Shown here one piece after another: positions 55,005 to 64,000 of a stretch of DNA of 64,000 nucleotides. The position numbers and the translations under genes were made by a program. The notes under the pieces were generated by a model. That model did not search any database. It was not told the origin of the DNA and saw nothing but the letters and a program-made list of their open reading frames with translations. The DNA comes from Sparassis latifolia (lineage: Eukaryota > Basidiomycota > Agaricomycetes > Polyporales > Sparassidaceae): the NCBI GenBank assembly GCA_018466975.1, contig CM031553.1, positions 558,001 to 622,000 on the forward strand, in the 5' to 3' direction. How positions within the stretch are numbered: position 1 is the stretch's first letter; every line of letters starts with the position of its first letter.

Positions 55005-57286
55005 TCAATGCGGCCTCGCCGGATCGTCATACGGCGTCACGAACGCCTCACTTTCAGGCTCGTAAGGCTTGTCGCTGAAATGCATCGGCGGACGTATGAC
55101 GTTCGGCACCGCGCGGTACTGCTGGTTCCGGCCGTCGCTGACAAGCTTGATCAGGACGCCGAGAAGGAGCACGAGCACGCCCGCGATGAGGCCCATGATG
55201 ATGTACGAGTTGCGCGTGAGCCCGCCGAGATCGACCGTCGATGACGACGACGCGCCGCCGGACGCCTCAGCGAGTGCCGCGTCGAGCTTCGCAGCCGCAG
55301 CGGGAGTGGTGGTGCTCGCCGTCGACGGGCTCAGGGTGCTTGCAGAAGGGCCCGAGGTGCTGGACGCACCCGCCGAATGGGTCGCGGAGAGGGAGGGGGA
55401 GGTGAGCGAGTACGTGACGCTCTGCGAGACGGTCTTCGGGTACGTGTAGTTCTGGTTATCCTGGATCTGCTGCTGCTCAGTCTGCCCGATCCGCTCCAAG
55501 TTGAGCGTGTCGAAGTTCGCCCAGGCCTTGTCCGGGTCCGTGAGCTGGGAAGGCGGTCAGTAACAGATGGTGCACTTGAGCGCCGGACGCACAGAGAGTA
55601 GCTGCATGTAGGGCTGGTTCGTGCGGTTCTCGGTCCAGTTTCCCCAATGAAAGAGCGTGTAGACATTCCGCAGGAACGAGCTGCCGAGGATGAAATCTAT
55701 GGTACGAACGAATCCGGGCGATCAGCTGGAGCCGCCACACTTGCAGAAGGGATACATACCGGCACCAACGGATGCACCGCTGTAACTGATAGCACCGATG
55801 CATTTCAAAGAACCATCATCGCTGACGCCGACAATTGTGGAGTCGATGGGGTCAACCGGGTAGATGCTCTCACTGTGAATCGCGAGTCGACAGATAAACA
55901 ATTTGTTCTGCAAGAATAGGGATTGAGATGTAGACGAACCCAAACACCATACTGATGTTCAACTTTGTCGAACACGGCACCGAATAAGTCCTTATACTAG
56001 GAATCCATTGCGCTCCAGGGATATCCTTGTAGATCCCGTGGACGTAGTACGGCGGAGCTATCACTGTCAATGTACCAGTTAGCACACCGACAACTATGTG
56101 AGTTAATCGACAAGGTGAACACCCACTCAGGGCAGTACCAGAATCAAGGATGACGATAGTCTGATTGGGACCAGGGTTAGCATTAACACCAGTGCCATTG
56201 GGTCTGAATAGCACCGGGTAAGCGCTGTACATCTCAAAATGAAAGATACAAAACGCACCCAAACGAGTTGCCAGTTAGAAACTTCCCATCCAAGTAAACA
56301 CCGTCCATGAACGTGGAGAAGGTATCGTCAGAGTATACCGGTAATGGAGGTGCCTCAAGGACCGCTTCAAAGTTCGTCACAATCTCCGCTACGCAGACCC
56401 AGTCAGTGCATACGCACCAAGAGTGTATCAGCGAACTTACAGATCGTGAGAGCACCGCCGTCAACGACGCCAACAGCAGAGCGTGTAAGGTATAAGGTAA
56501 TGTACGGCTCCATGTCGGGATTGTTGTTGAATAGCTACAACGTGTTTGAGCGATAGGATCTCATGATTCTGAGACATCGTAGGTTCTTACATTTGACAGG
56601 AATGGCCAACCATTGTCTGTGCTATTGTGATATAGATTTTGGAAAATACCGGAAGCGAACGGTCTGCCCAAATTACGAGATCAGTGGAAGCAAGGCAGGA
56701 GGTCGATTGCTACACGTACGAGCTGACACCCAGGATACCATCGGCAGACCTGGCAATTTCAGCAGCAGCGGATCCGGAGTTGACTGGAGTAACATGGTAA
56801 GTACTAAAAAGCGCCGGAATGGCTGAGATACAAACTGAACGCCTGTGCTTGCACTGTATACTGGCCAAGGGAGATATTCGCGAGCACGATCGGCCCATCA
56901 ATATAAGTCCCATCACTACCATGAGCGAAGTATGAATATTGCGCACACTGCCGTCGAGGCGAGAGCTCTACTCACTCATAGGTGACGTTCTCGCTGTGCC
57001 CAGTGGGAATGAGGCCGTCCAGCGTCAGATTTTGGGAGTTGTAGATCCATAGGTCCGAGCTGCCAGTGTCAATCACAACCTGGAACGGCTGGCCCTGGAT
57101 GTAAACGGTCGCGGTGTACATTCCAATGAGCATCCATGAATTGGTGAACCCGAGCCGGCCCTCGTTCGTGGTGTTGACCGTCACAACAGCTGTCGTGTTC
57201 TTGAAGATGGGGTTGTGATCGGTCGCGGCATAGATCGCGGCAAAGCAGGAGCAGAGCGACAGGAGAGTCAACGGAACCACAAACAT
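55005..57286 (-). CDS. Membrane-anchored pepsin-type aspartic protease
   Basis: An A1-family aspartic endopeptidase in about eight exons. A signal peptide (MFVVPLTLLSLCSCFAAIYA) is followed by LIGMYTATVYIQGQPFQVVI and the first active-site motif DTGSSDLW. Next come a flap-side region (FAHGSDGTYIDGPIVLANIS), VYLDGKFLTGNSFG and the second active-site motif IVILDSGTALSG. A Ser/Thr/Ala-rich stalk near the C-terminus leads to one transmembrane helix (SYIIMGLIAGVLVLLLGVLI) and a short cytosolic tail ending YDDPARPH. So the enzyme is probably held at the cell surface or vacuolar membrane with its catalytic part outside. The start was set at the ATG that gives the signal peptide. It lies between two ~300 bp direct repeats, a sign of past local duplication. 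Confidence 0.9.
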
Positions 57287-57623
57287 GTGACCGCGTACCA
57301 GAGGTTGGGGAGATGATGGAGGCTTCGTGCCAGCAACATGGCATTTTATACGTGCCTCACCAGGAGAGAAGCCCAAGGGAGTAAGGCGGATATAGTCGGA
57401 GTCCCATGCTTGAACAGCCACTACTAGCGGTGGCTCGCCCGAGCGCGTATGAGCGCGCGGTGATGCACCATGAGCCTATGTGCACCCCGAGCCATCTGTG
57501 CCGCACAGAGCAGCATGGACTGAGTCATCATTCGAGGTGAGGTCTTGTGACGTGTTTTCAATGCTAGGACACCCGAGACGTTGAATCAATAGAGTAAGTA
57601 CTTGATAATTGTGGCCCATAGGG

Positions 57624-57919: not shown

Positions 57920-57979
57920 TGGCATCAGTCGGGTGATTCTGGCTAATCTTCCCACCCCAGGGAGCGCGCGAGCTGGAAA

Positions 57980-58762
57980 AGGACCCCTGAATATACCCTA
58001 GGACGTCGTTTCCGCATCCGGACAAAAATTTGGAGGTTTTCAGCTGGACGCCGTATCCCATCCGGACAAAAACAGGACAAAAACGGTCGACCGCCGTGCG
58101 GTTCATCCGGACATAAAATTCGAGGTCCCTCGGAGGCCATCTGACCGTCCGGACATTTTTCGGGCCTATAGTCGTATGTCGTAGCGGTTGGAGTGTGTAC
58201 CGGAGATCTGCTGGTTTGTGCGAGCATGTGTTTGAGTCCCAAGAAATGCACATCGGGGATATGTTTAATCTTTCCACTACTGAGAGCCTAGGTTCACCTT
58301 AAGCGGCAATGTTCAGTTTTGCATCAGCATCCAATCATTGAACTTCTCAGCTTCTCACTGTGATTGTTGGGCACAAGATTCCTTTTCTATATCAGAGGAA
58401 ACAGAGTGAATAGAAGTAGAAGTACCCTAGTAGTAATCTACAGTACATGCATTCTACCACTACTGTGCCAACTGATGCTATCACCTGTTTCCTCTGTGCT
58501 ATCCGGACAAAACAATCAGTTCTTATAGGCCATTTGTGCCATCCGGACAAAAATTTGAGGTTTTATAGGCCGTTTTCACCATCCGGACAAAAATTTGGGA
58601 CTTGTAATGCCGTCTCCGTTGTCCGGACAATTTTTCGGAAAAGTCGCCATCGTCTCCGCATCCGGACAAAAAACTCCCAAAACCTGCTGAAAAAAGTCCG
58701 GACAAAAAATTGGAAAATCGATGATTTTGGATACGACGTCTTAGGGTATATTCAGGGGTCCT
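57980..58762. mobile_element. hAT-like MITE with 8 bp target duplication and 40 bp internal array
   Basis: Terminal inverted repeats: 'aggacccctgaatataccct' continuing 'aggacgtcgt' from 57980, and its complement to 58762. The octamer GCTGGAAA flanks both ends perfectly (57972-57979 and 58763-58770). An 8 bp duplication points to hAT-type transposition. Inside are about ten direct copies of 'atccggacaaaa'; six form a regular ~40 bp array at 58499-58735. There is no transposase ORF. Confidence 0.88.
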
Positions 58763-58804
58763 GCTGGAAAGCGAGCGTAAGAATTGAGAAGCCATGTACA
58801 AGCT

Positions 58805-60094
58805 TGCAAAGGACCCCCGACAATTGGGGAAGGTCCCTGAGCCGGACAGATTTTGAACTTTCGAGAGCCTCATGTTGGAATTTCTGGGTGTTGAGTGAGC
58901 TCGCAAGCTGAAGAGGGTTAGGGTTTGTCGATTGAGTACTTATGCCATGCTTTCGTGTTTGTATTCCTTACGCGATTGCCCCATCCTCACTCGTCCCTTG
59001 GGGTCAAACGTGCTCATTCTTGGTTGAAACATCTACTGTGCTACTGGTGATTTCAATCCAATCGCATGACCTAGCTTGGAGGTTTACCCAAGTGGCTCTG
59101 GGGGCAGCCAAAAGCCTGCTGTTCGCTGTGATGCTGTGAAGATGTGTCATATGCTATTCTCTGCTGAGGTCGAGGTTCACTTTCCGACTCTCGCATGCCA
59201 TGTCTGCTTGAAGACCATAATCTTGTCGTGGTTGATCTTTTGGATCTTTTGAAGGAAGTCGTCACTTGTCGGCGCAGAAGAATCTGTTGGTTGAAGAAGA
59301 GTTGAAGAAGTTGAAGAGTTGCAGAAGAAGTTGAAGGATTGTTGAAGAACTTGGTGCGAACCATCGTCATTGTCTCTCTTTGTCGCCTAAGAGTCATCGG
59401 TCGGAGCCCTGCTGGTCTGGGCATGGACCACTGGCTGGATGTCGGAGATTGGGAAGGATTTTGACTGGTGGATTGGATGCTGTTGAGTTGTTGAGGTTGA
59501 GGTGGAGATTTCAGGGAGTGCTCTGCTTCAGGGAGTGAGTCATTTTTATCGGCTTGCTTCGCTCAAGGGAGTGTGTTGGAATTTCTGGGTGTTGAGTGAG
59601 CTCGCAAGCTGAAGAGGGTTAGGGTTTGTCGATTGAGTACTTATGCCATGCTTTCGTGTTTGTATTCCTTACGCGATTGCCCCATCCTCACTCGTCCCTT
59701 GGGGTCAAATGTGCTCATTCTTGGTTGAAACATCTACTGTGCTACTGGTGATTTCAATACCTCATGCCTGGTATTTCACTGACAAATCAGGGGGTTGACC
59801 ACCGGATAGCCTCAGGGAGCCATTTCGTGGACATCGGGGAGGCAGTGCCCAGGAGGCCTGATTCGGGGCCGGACAAACGCTTTTTGTGGAAGGCCAGGGC
59901 CGGAGGAGGAGGCGGCGTAGCCGCCGTATCAGAAGCGCCCTAAATTACCTTTTTAGGGTTAGAAACTCACGTTAGGCCTGCAGCCTGCGAGGTCTTGCCA
60001 AATTGTCCGGATTAGACACGGCATAGGCCATTTTTTTGCCCGAATTTTGTCCGGATTGCGAAACGGCATCCTCGCCAATATTCAAGGGTCCTTT
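58805..60094. mobile_element. Older relative of the MITE, split by a TRIM insertion
   Basis: The left end 'aaaggacccccgacaattgg' (58805) and the complement of the right end, 'aaaggacccttgaatattgg' (to 60094), form ~26 bp imperfect inverted repeats. They share AGGACCC..GAATAT with the MITE at 57980. The right half carries 'ttgtccggat', the same motif in reverse orientation, at 60001-60056, and 'ggccggacaaa' near 59868. No target duplication is visible. The TRIM at 58873-59759 sits inside it. Confidence 0.55.
58873..59759 (+). mobile_element. TRIM (miniature LTR retrotransposon)
   Basis: Two direct terminal repeats of ~186 bp (58873-59058 and 59574-59759) begin TGTTGGAATTTCTGGGTG and end ctggtgatttcaat(c/a). 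I see two differences between them. CCTCA flanks the element on both sides (58868-58872 and 59760-59764), the 5 bp duplication expected of integrase. A purine-rich 'caagggagtg' just before the second repeat could be the polypurine tract. The ~515 bp interior has no gag-pol coding, so mobility would depend on another element. Near-identical repeats imply a recent insertion. Confidence 0.88.
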
Positions 60095-60251
60095 AAATTT
60101 TAAGAGCCTGATCCATATCTGCCTTTGCATCCGACCGTGCTCCGTGCTCCTGTCCGACCTCCGACATATGCTCCCGTCAGCTCCCGCGTCTACTTATTAA
60201 AAGGGGCGCGATCCCCACTGAATCGCTCTCAAGAATTGTCTCTCAACCACC
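60095..60251. promoter_or_regulatory. Upstream region of the duplicated-module gene
   Basis: 157 bp between the transposon cluster and the start codon. 'ttattaaaagg' near 60195 is the only TATA-like stretch. The promoter is therefore short or overlaps transposon sequence. Confidence 0.4.
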
Positions 60252-62746
60252 ATGTCTTCCACCTGCAACTCAGAAGATGTCCCGCACAAGCTCAATGTTA
60301 CGAATAGCTCAGTTGGTCGGCGTTACCCCCGATATGTGCATTGGTTCCGTCAGTATTTGCCTCATACGAACTGCGGCAGCTGTTCATGTGATGTGGACTG
60401 GGCATACAAGTGCGTTTTAACTGTGTGTCCGGCTGACTTTCCACATCGATGATGTATATACGTGGATAGACGAATTACAGTTCGTTTATGGGACTACTTT
60501 CTCTCAGAAACGTATTCCGAATATGTTTATATCCTTGACAAAGATGGTTACTTAGACTACGCAGTATTGGCACGTGACTTGGGTGTGGAAGAACTTTTGG
60601 TATCTCTCAATCTATTCCCATTCACCTTGCACTTACCATCTGCTTAGGCGGTAGCCACACGATGTGTGACAGCGTGCCACTTCTGTACTCGTAGGTCTAC
60701 GCGTGAACGAGCTGTAAGCACGAAAGCCAAGATGGAAGGGAGATCTTACTTGACAGTAGTTGGTCAGCGTTGTCTTTTTCCATGTATTGTTGTTGCGACA
60801 TCACTTCATTCGGCATCGGTTCTAGAAAATCCTCGCGGCCTCAACAAGATTTTACGAGAAATACCACGGCAGGAGGTGTCTTTGAGGATGATTCGCGTGC
60901 GTTGGTACCCCACCCCTGGCTCGACATTCGAAGAGACAGTCGAGCCGTTGGATAAGTATGGCCGCCTATCTCTTGGCCAAATCGCTCGTCGACACAGTAT
61001 TGCAAATGTTCACGTCTTTAATCGTCGGAACAAGAAGCGCTTCATTACCGACCGCATGCGAGCTCTATTCTATGATGAATTCGAAAAGGTCATGTTTCCC
61101 CATGGTTTTATTGCGCTCACTGGTATGTACCATGGTGGCTCTCTTTTTTTCTCACAGCGGAAACGGTCACAGATGCCGCTGTCCCTATGAAACCGGAAGG
61201 CCAAGGTTGGATTTTTTGCTTACTCCTCGGTTGTCGCTCTCAATCCCTTCGACCTGTTAGTCATATGCTACGAGCTATCTCAAGCGTGGAACAGGTTGAC
61301 CCGTATCTTTGGCACTGCGACCAAGATGCCAAAGGCAAGCCAAACATATTATTTGCCTCAGTCTGAGTAAGTTCGCTGTCCAATTTATCACCCTGCTAAG
61401 AACTCAATCGTGGCAGTGTTACAAGGGAAGTGAACGAGAGTAAAGATAAATCGTACTGTTCGGACCATGCTCGTCAGAGCGGAGGAATTGATTCATACCC
61501 CCAGTAAGCCAAGTCTACGTAATTTGTAACGGTCAATTCCCCCTGTTTCTCACACTTGTCTCTCCAAAATTTGCTTCTAGGGACTCCACAGAAAAGTCGA
61601 AGGATGTTTCGCCAATCCCACACCCGCTCGGTACTTCTTACCATCGATCTCAGCGAAAGAAACCCGACTTGCAGCGGAGGGATCCAGAATGGGCATATAG
61701 CCTAAAGAGACATCCGAATTGCCCCAACTGTATTTGTGGGTCAAGATGGGCAAACAAGTAGGTTTGAATGTATTGTCAACTCGTTCTAGTCTTCACCATC
61801 ATCTCTCAGGCGAATCACTATTCGTCTCTGCGATTATTTCCTCTCAGAAACCTACTCCGAGTTCGAACACACACTTGACAAAGATGGTGTTTTAGATTAT
61901 GAAGAGTTAGCGCATAACTTGGGCGTTACGGAATTGATGGTATCCAGAGTTATCTCCTTGTCTACCCACCACTCACCTACTTCACAGCCGGTCCCAGTGC
62001 GGAGTGTCAAAGATGGCTTTGGTCAAATTTATCCCTCGACAATCCGCGAACCGCCTAGGATCACCAGGTCCATGATGGAGGGAAGGAAGTACTTGATTGT
62101 CGTGGGTAAGTGTATTCCACTCATGTCGTAAGGTGGATTGAGTATACAGCAACACTCCTTACGAAATCCAGAGAACTCTCGTGATGTGGGTAAGCCGCAG
62201 CGTACTGTTCCGCAGAACGAGGTCTCAGTACGGTCAATGCGCGTGCGATGGTATTCTACCCCCGGCACGGGTTACGAAGAAAGTGTCGAGCCCCTGGACA
62301 AGTACGGCCGCCTCTCTCTTGGGCAGATCGCTCGTCAGCGTGGGGTTGCGAACGTCCATGTTTTCGATCCTAAGGACAACAAACGATTCGCGACCGATCG
62401 CAGGCGCGCCCTATTTTTCGACGAGTTCGCAGGCATCGTGGATCCTGATGGTTATTTGGCTCTCACTGGTGTGGTTGCATTTGGCCGAAATGTTCTCACT
62501 TAAGTCATTTTGCATCCCAGATGCCGCGGTAGCTATGCGCACCAAGAAACCACGTGGAGGTTATTATCCTAGCGCTCTCTCCTCTTTAGTTGGGCCACTG
62601 ATATGTGACGTTCGATAGTGTCGTCTGTGGACACTGGAGAACGCTTGACGCGACAAATCCGCCCTGTAAACTGGCTTCTTCGCACAATGTTTCGGAGGCC
62701 GAGCAAGATGAGAAGCAACTCCCAGAAAAGCAAAGATGGACTATGA
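60252..62746 (+). CDS. Protein of two tandem ~300-residue modules, unknown family
   Basis: Thirteen exons join in frame to 609 residues: 60252-60409, 60470-60599, 60648-60762, 60826-61122, 61158-61205, 61261-61366, 61417-61503, 61581-61757, 61810-61939, 61988-62105, 62172-62468, 62521-62559, 62619-62746. Each module has, in order, a Cys-rich start (HTNCGSCSCDVDWAYK; HPNCPNCICGSRWANK), a block with LSETYSE..LDKDG..LDY and LGV, then EGRxYLxVV, then a block with RVRWY..TPG..EPLDKYGRLSLGQIAR and ANVHVF, KRF.TDR.RALF, and an ALTG end. Matching exons are 130/130, 115/118 and 297/297 nt with equal phases, so the duplication copied introns too. Introns at 61206 and 62560 use weak donors. If either is wrong, there are two adjacent genes, or the end is at 62618. 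I recognise no known domain; zinc binding by NCxxCxC is a guess. Confidence 0.7.
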
Positions 62747-63036: not shown

Positions 63037-64000
63037 TTATGGCAAAGAAACAGTCCCATCAGAGTCGGTGCTCTGCCGCCGTGCTATTCGTTCCTCGACG
63101 GCCCTGCATTCTGAGAGCAGCTTGATGACAGCTGGTCGTCCGTTGGCGTTTCGGATGAATGGCATCTGAGTGGTCACATAGGAAAAAAATAAGCTCATCC
63201 CTTAGGGATATACAAAAAAGAGCATACCTTCGACAGTGTGTCTGGATCTGGTCGTAACGAGTTAGGTTGAGAACATTGATGCAAAAAATCGTGAAAAGAT
63301 CGTGAATATATTTCGGGCTGGCGTAACGGAGGCCATCGATCGGCCAGCTGTCGAGGGTCCTCAATCCCAAAGAATGGTGGTTCCGCCTCGGCCATCTCCC
63401 AGACAGTCGCACCCAGTGACCAGACATCAACCTTCAAGGCATTGTATGATCCCCTGAGAAAACTGGAAGTCAGCAGTGATCCACATCCTAGAGAATGCGT
63501 CGCGCACCTTCTTATTTCAGGTGACTAGATGAAACGAAAGTTGACTCATCAACATATTCCACAGACCGAGTAGAAAGTGTATCGCACCTGCCAATAAATA
63601 ACACCCGCTGGATCAGTGCGCATTGGCTGATCCCTCGAAACTTGCACGGCACTCGAGAAGTCCGCTGTGCGGAGAACCCGTGTTAAAACTGAGGACATTG
63701 CCACAAGGGCCAAAACGTACCAATCTTCACCACGCCGTCTCTGCCAACGAGAAGGTTGTCCGAACGCAAATCCCTGTGCGCGATGCCCAGTGATTGCAGG
63801 AAGCTCAGCGCCGACAACACCTGATCGAGACTATCAGAACACGTCATACTACAATATCGAGGGCAGGACGTACGTCGCTGGCGAACTGAGCTATCGGCTT
63901 CTCCTGCACGACAATACCCTCTGCCACAAGCACCACCACGTCCGCCAAACTACGCTCCATGAGGTCCATCCGCAACCAGAGCGAGTCCTCCACGACGTCC
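63037..64000 (-). CDS. PAK/Ste20-like kinase, C-terminal part (runs off the window), DFG altered to DFS
   Basis: The reading begins beyond 64000 and ends at 63037. Visible kinase motifs, N to C: a hinge-side segment (LWLRMDLMERSLADVV), helix E (VLSALSFLQSLGIA), catalytic loop HRDLRSDNLLVG, DGVVKI, then ADFSSAVQV where family members have DFG, YWQSPEIRR in the APE position, helix F (KVDVWSLGATVWEMAEAEPP), and a C-terminal helix with MPFIRNANGRPAVIKLLSEC. HRD with Asn in the loop and the helix-F Asp-Trp-Ser pattern are intact. Spacing and HRDLRSDN favour the PAK/Ste20 group. Any CRIB or PH domain would lie to the right of the window. Introns are ~50 bp with good sites, so this is not a random open frame. 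Activity is uncertain because of DFS. Confidence 0.85.

Follow-up and report, generated by a model that had tools for sequence, protein, structure and literature searches.

The locus and its exons

The locus described here lies in a stretch of 64,000 nt from Sparassis latifolia (GenBank assembly GCA_018466975.1, contig CM031553.1, positions 558,001 to 622,000), called the window below, a portion of contig C2 in a genome of 41.4 Mb and 22 contigs. Two homologous modules were rebuilt at 60252-62746 on the + strand (positions are those of the window; Table 1). A sequence-only reading of the window had described two tandem modules here, and its sequence blocks, matching exons and common intron phases were all recovered. 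The closest proteins, among the matches listed, are from S. latifolia. All gene models used, including the public ones (P0001 to P0006, P0008 and P0011), are predictions, not transcripts.

The acceptor of the fifth exon of module 1 is probably 61173 rather than 61158, because this site restores the DAAV.M block common to module 2. The junctions of P0003 (S. crispa) and P0005 match those set beforehand for their counterparts in this genome, C12:1279k and C7:1379k, with two exceptions: in P0005 no intron follows ...ALT, and the third intron of the P0003 gene is spliced differently in its S. latifolia model, P0004. At several positions where this genome differs, P0003 and P0004 concur.

Table 1 Exons of the two-module locus; domain names as in the text, P numbers are public gene models.
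Feature	Position	Strand	Remarks
Module 1 exon 1	60252..60409	+	Start codon and HxxCxxCxC motif (HTNCGSCSC), the motif being common to module 2 and single-module relatives; open frame, GT donor
Module 1 exon 2 (130 nt)	60470..60599	+	Domain A, first half (RITVRLWDY...LDKDGYLDY...)
Module 1 exon 3 (115 nt)	60648..60762	+	Domain A end (EGRSYLTVV)
Module 1 exon 4 (297 nt)	60826..61122	+	Domain B (IRVRWYPTPG...LDKYGRLSLGQIAR...ALTG)
Module 1 exon 5	61173..61205	+	DAAVPMKPEGQ; alternative acceptor 61158; P0002 reads through the intron before this exon
Module 1 tail	61261..61370	+	One-module reading ends at TAA 61368-61370; exon also in P0002
Possible linker exon of fused reading (87 nt, no stop)	61417..61503	+	Contains ATG 61467, possible own start of module 2; exon also in P0002
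Module 2 exon with HPNCPNCIC motif	61581..61757	+	Splice acceptor is the AG of AGG (61579-61581)
Module 2 exon (130 nt)	61810..61939	+	Domain A, first half
Module 2 exon (118 nt)	61988..62105	+	Domain A end
Module 2 exon (297 nt)	62172..62468	+	Domain B, predicted ubiquitin-like beta-grasp
Module 2 exon (DAAVAMRTKKPRG)	62521..62559	+	Spliced junction present in P0001
Module 2 last exon	62619..62746	+	To TGA 62744-62746; P0001 agrees until ...RRPSKMR, then diverges

Duplication and constraint

The modules repeat each other exon by exon (130/130, 115/118 and 297/297 nt), and the bordering introns have phases 2-0-1-1 in both. In a two-sequence BLASTP comparison of module against module, 135 of 259 aligned columns are identical (E 9e-83). 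Differences in the 297-nt exon fall 27, 21 and 55 times at codon positions 1, 2 and 3. For the 130- and 297-nt exons together the proportion of nonsynonymous differences (pN) is 0.214 against a saturated synonymous proportion (pS) of 0.739, so that the coding sequence has been under constraint; the ratio of nonsynonymous to synonymous rates (dN/dS) is ~0.08 for the two exons and ~0.12 for the 297-nt exon alone, dS not being computable for the 130-nt exon. Saturated pS with low dN/dS makes the duplication old and its protein one that was constrained.

Identity is 58% between modules 1 and 2, against 32-38% between them and four other family copies; with single modules at the other loci read, this bears out the tandem duplication proposed from the sequence-only reading. 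Homology between the C-terminal tails is unsupported, since 257 of 1000 shuffles score at least as high. Upstream of the modules the evidence for homology is weak: 2 of 500 shuffles match an alignment confined to the upstream regions, but 79 of 500 match one that takes in the start region as well. A family tree of ten rows, rooted at a midpoint between the two modules and with good support for two of its seven inner branches, settles nothing.

Domain architecture

Each module consists of an N-terminal HxxCxxCxC motif, domain A and domain B, in that order. The motif occurs as HTNCGSCSC, HPNCPNCIC, HPRCPTCTC and similar versions, and at C7:1379k it is only loosely kept. Domain A follows the pattern IRIRFLDY...LDxDGxLDYxxLAxxLGV...YLxVV, domain B the pattern VRVRWYPSP...FEExxEPLDxxGxLSLGxIARxHGI...GFIALT. 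Profiles of A and B, each built from eight sequences, align over 75-76 columns in two hhalign comparisons (probability 91.7, E 7.8e-7; probability 93.6, E 2e-7); in the second of these the score was 40.5, where 200 column shuffles reached at most 17.6 and the reversed profile 15.5. Judged by these profiles, the repeat unit is a whole domain of ~80 residues, present four times across the locus. An internal repeat had thus been recognised correctly from the LDKDG and LDKYG blocks, but its unit had been put at ~42 residues, and the halves carrying these blocks align over the full 75-76 columns.

The EF-hand is a 12-residue DxDxDG loop. An EF-hand reading of LDKDGYLDY was rejected, the loop being too short and Pfam giving no match at E <= 10 in four proteins (program filters drop most matches above ~0.1).

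The family in the genome and in databases

Searches of the genome with the two window modules, P0003 and P0005 gave at least eight further loci, these counts being lower bounds, with at most one module each in the stretches read. The conserved exons are open at three (C12:1279k, C7:1379k and C12:1889k-1898k); the other five (C12:779k, C4:2767k, C6:2089k, C7:1456k and C2:207k) have a frame break or stop, although one-base breaks could be assembly errors. The family thus comprises some ten or more copies, dispersed, multi-intron and diverged, and the several broken ones suggest turnover by birth and death more than they do a core function.

Five broken loci in eight, with a module-2 start codon that may have been lost (see below), speak for the tandem pair being itself a remnant, with one or both modules no longer expressed and frames open only through the recency of decay. 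We consider this improbable: all conserved exons are open in both modules, and synonymous change between them is saturated where amino-acid change is modest.

Two of the broken loci, C7:1456k (L029) and C2:207k (L028), are decayed family copies; P0006, the S. crispa counterpart of the former, is annotated as a gene though part of domain B is missing. At C12:1889.4k-1898.4k (L034 728-9695) a single-module copy carries a long terminal repeat (LTR) element inside its third intron. The element's 250-nt repeats are 96% alike, its antisense open reading frames resemble reverse transcriptase and integrase by eye, and the public model P0011 extends into the repeat.

Among ~5.8 billion protein sequences, at least 11 distinct proteins were found at E <= 10, all of S. 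latifolia or S. crispa and all annotated as 'hypothetical'. Among the matches listed the family is so far restricted to Sparassis (11 of 11), which agrees with the lineage restriction suggested earlier. The search requires shared five-residue words, and one search scored only the 7999 candidates sharing most words; since it missed even P0001 and P0002, relatives outside Sparassis may exist. Single-module relatives, for which a search had been advised, were found as the public Sparassis models P0003, P0004 and P0005 (279, 299 and 289 residues). The entries SCP_0309420, SCP_1301270, SCP_0510680, BKA93DRAFT_486504, BKA93DRAFT_762500 and BKA93DRAFT_756255 belong to the same family, as single-module or partial models with no function assigned.

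As anticipated, no named family came over its cut-off, in NCBIfam for three public relatives or in Pfam. DUF6741 (PF20526) was rejected: its likeness to module 1 is weak (15.1 bits against a 27-bit cut-off), module 2 gives no match, one of eight domain-B members matches it (E 0.0078), and the matches over cut-off in this genome sit at another gene (C10). Phage records searched with P0003 gave no match. Literature searches on DUF6741, SCP_0309420 and BKA93DRAFT, and on lineage-specific ubiquitin-like domains in Agaricomycetes, returned nothing.

Predicted fold

Domain B has the topology strand-strand-helix-strand-strand-(helix)-strand in two AlphaFold2 models, a result of computation only. Its listed structural neighbours are nearly all of one fold, the ubiquitin-like beta-grasp, with a Foldseek E never better than 0.037 against solved structures; no sequence match to a solved structure was better than E 0.41. 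By this prediction domains A and B most likely take a ubiquitin-like beta-grasp fold. That they have another small alpha/beta fold, and share with ubiquitin only a common arrangement of elements, seems to us unlikely though by no means negligible, given that the complete order of elements is the same in both models and that the listed neighbours are so nearly uniform. The claim that the locus holds something undescribed stands for the family, which has no name; its novelty is lowered by the predicted fold.

Conjugation to targets appears unlikely on these models, because Gly-Gly is absent after domain B in the spliced models checked (P0001, P0003, P0005, P0008 and the 604-residue model described below). 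One observation weighs the other way. Retention of the last module-2 intron (62521-62617) would end the protein at 62617 with the tail ...KKPRGGYYPSALSSLVGPLICDVR / ...TKKPRGGYYPSALSSLVGPLICDVR; this unspliced tail contains ...TKKPRGGYYPS..., in which RGG stands twelve residues past the strand and is followed by an extension.

One gene or two

Both modules can be read in a single frame of 604 residues, with one stop at its end; as far as 62520 its introns are GT-AG and 48-77 nt long. Module 1 can equally be read alone, as 280 residues ending at its own TAA, and module 2 alone, from ATG 61467 with a splice from 61503 to 61592, as 304 residues. The sequence-only reading had proposed duplication followed by fusion; the second step has the 604-residue frame for it and the stop after 280 residues against it.

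That the locus holds two independent tandem genes, module 1 at 60252-61370 and module 2 from ATG 61467, has in our estimate a chance only just short of even. Both frames are open, and their sizes are near those of P0003 to P0005. The 96 nt between the module-1 stop and this possible start would, by general knowledge, leave very little room for both a terminator and a promoter. Enumeration gave six open single-intron paths for starting module 2, so that an open path alone proves little and the one from ATG 61467 may be due to chance; P0001, which begins inside module 2, does not use this ATG.

A single fused gene, in which splicing at TCTGA|GTAAGT (61367) removes the module-1 stop and yields a 604-residue, four-domain protein, is a serious possibility that we nevertheless rate somewhat below an even chance. 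In its favour are the open frame with GT-AG introns, the consensus-like donors GTAAGT and GTAAGC, the shortness of the gap between the modules, and P0002, a public S. latifolia model from another genome, which joins module 1 to the linker exons. Where the protein alignment and the ungapped DNA match place the ATG of module 1, module 2 reads AGG (61579-61581), whose AG serves as splice acceptor; P0002 reads GGACTCC... right after its intron, which implies the same AG, as inferred from the letters. Against a fusion are the 280 residues of module 1 before its stop, comparable with the 279-residue P0003, and the single modules at the other loci read. Moreover, P0002 is a poor model, which begins at exon 3, leaves two introns unspliced and departs from the module-2 frame, and P0001 begins inside module 2. 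The start-region alignment is also weak: the ungapped match of 19/33 is the best of 121 offsets (offset 0; next 16/33), and a gapped DNA alignment, which sets ATG against ATT, does not stand out from shuffled sequence (79 of 500 shuffles score as high).

The TAA of module 1 falls within the possible splice donor GTAAGT (61367-61372), and both products could therefore come from one locus. We tentatively raise, as rather unlikely, a fusion in the making: with the linking intron kept, a two-domain protein would be made; with it removed, a four-domain ubiquitin-fold chain would result, the lost start codon of module 2 having become the next 3' splice site.

Neighbourhood of the locus

Upstream of module 1, at 58873-59758, two 185-nt direct terminal repeats, 99% alike, are spaced 701 nt from start to start. 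The pair recurs with identical spacing at C12:2615337/2616038, and the repeat has 18 genome matches including the window's own two; the element looks like a small non-autonomous LTR element. The short repeat element upstream also carries inverted CATCCGGACAAA-type repeats. The interval 57978-60094 holds repeated CATCCGGACAAAA units together with inverted arms (50 nt, 80%), which stop ~160 nt short of the start codon of module 1; 59980-60110 has three other genome matches. On the - strand, 56972-57421 encodes the N-terminal part of an aspartic protease (Pfam Asp, E 3.9e-5, above cut-off), and 63059-63500, downstream, the C-terminal end of what is likely a protein kinase (Pfam Pkinase at 22.5 bits, below the cut-off of 31.7, with E 8.4e-5). 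The upstream repeat element and the downstream kinase gene are not members of the family.

Proposed interpretation

Taken as a whole, we read the locus as tandem copies from a gene family seen to date in Sparassis alone, each with a Cys motif and two ubiquitin-fold domains, which would act in an adaptor or scaffold role and be expressed as one or two products; we would give this account about an even chance of being right. An old tandem duplication gave the two copies. In each, the HxxCxxCxC motif perhaps binds metal, and the two homologous domains of ~80 residues would adopt the beta-grasp fold. The proteins would more likely serve as intracellular adaptors or scaffolds than as modifiers, the exposed sheets of the two domains binding partners; a pair of such domains behind a Cys motif would suit an adaptor. 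Expression would be either as two genes or as one four-domain protein, through splicing across the module-1 stop.

If this is true, a single mushroom genus is so far the only one with this unnamed family of paired ubiquitin-fold domains, whose copies within one genome are variously intact, broken or in tandem, and the pair described here would lend itself well to following how adjacent genes merge. The gain would be a single family of the Pfam type and a splice question open to testing, with the general picture unchanged.

Comparison with known systems

The predicted element order, strand-strand-helix-strand-strand-helix-strand, is common to ubiquitin, SUMO, UFM1, Atg8/LC3, Atg5, PB1 and DIX, and the best structural neighbours belong to this fold. 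From these ubiquitin-like beta-grasp domains the Sparassis proteins differ in that comparisons with Pfam and PDB sequences found no relationship to them and that the spliced models have no Gly-Gly end. Bacterial multi-ubiquitin domain proteins (PDB 8u38, 9d5b, 9cd2, 9d5a) match at the level of the fold only, with identities of 12% (8u38) and 14% (9d5b), and they are bacterial; titles and abstract openings of the literature on bacterial multi-ubiquitin filaments held nothing on point. PB1 and DIX domains, which have the ubiquitin-like fold, assemble head to tail, and by analogy the Sparassis proteins might self-assemble.
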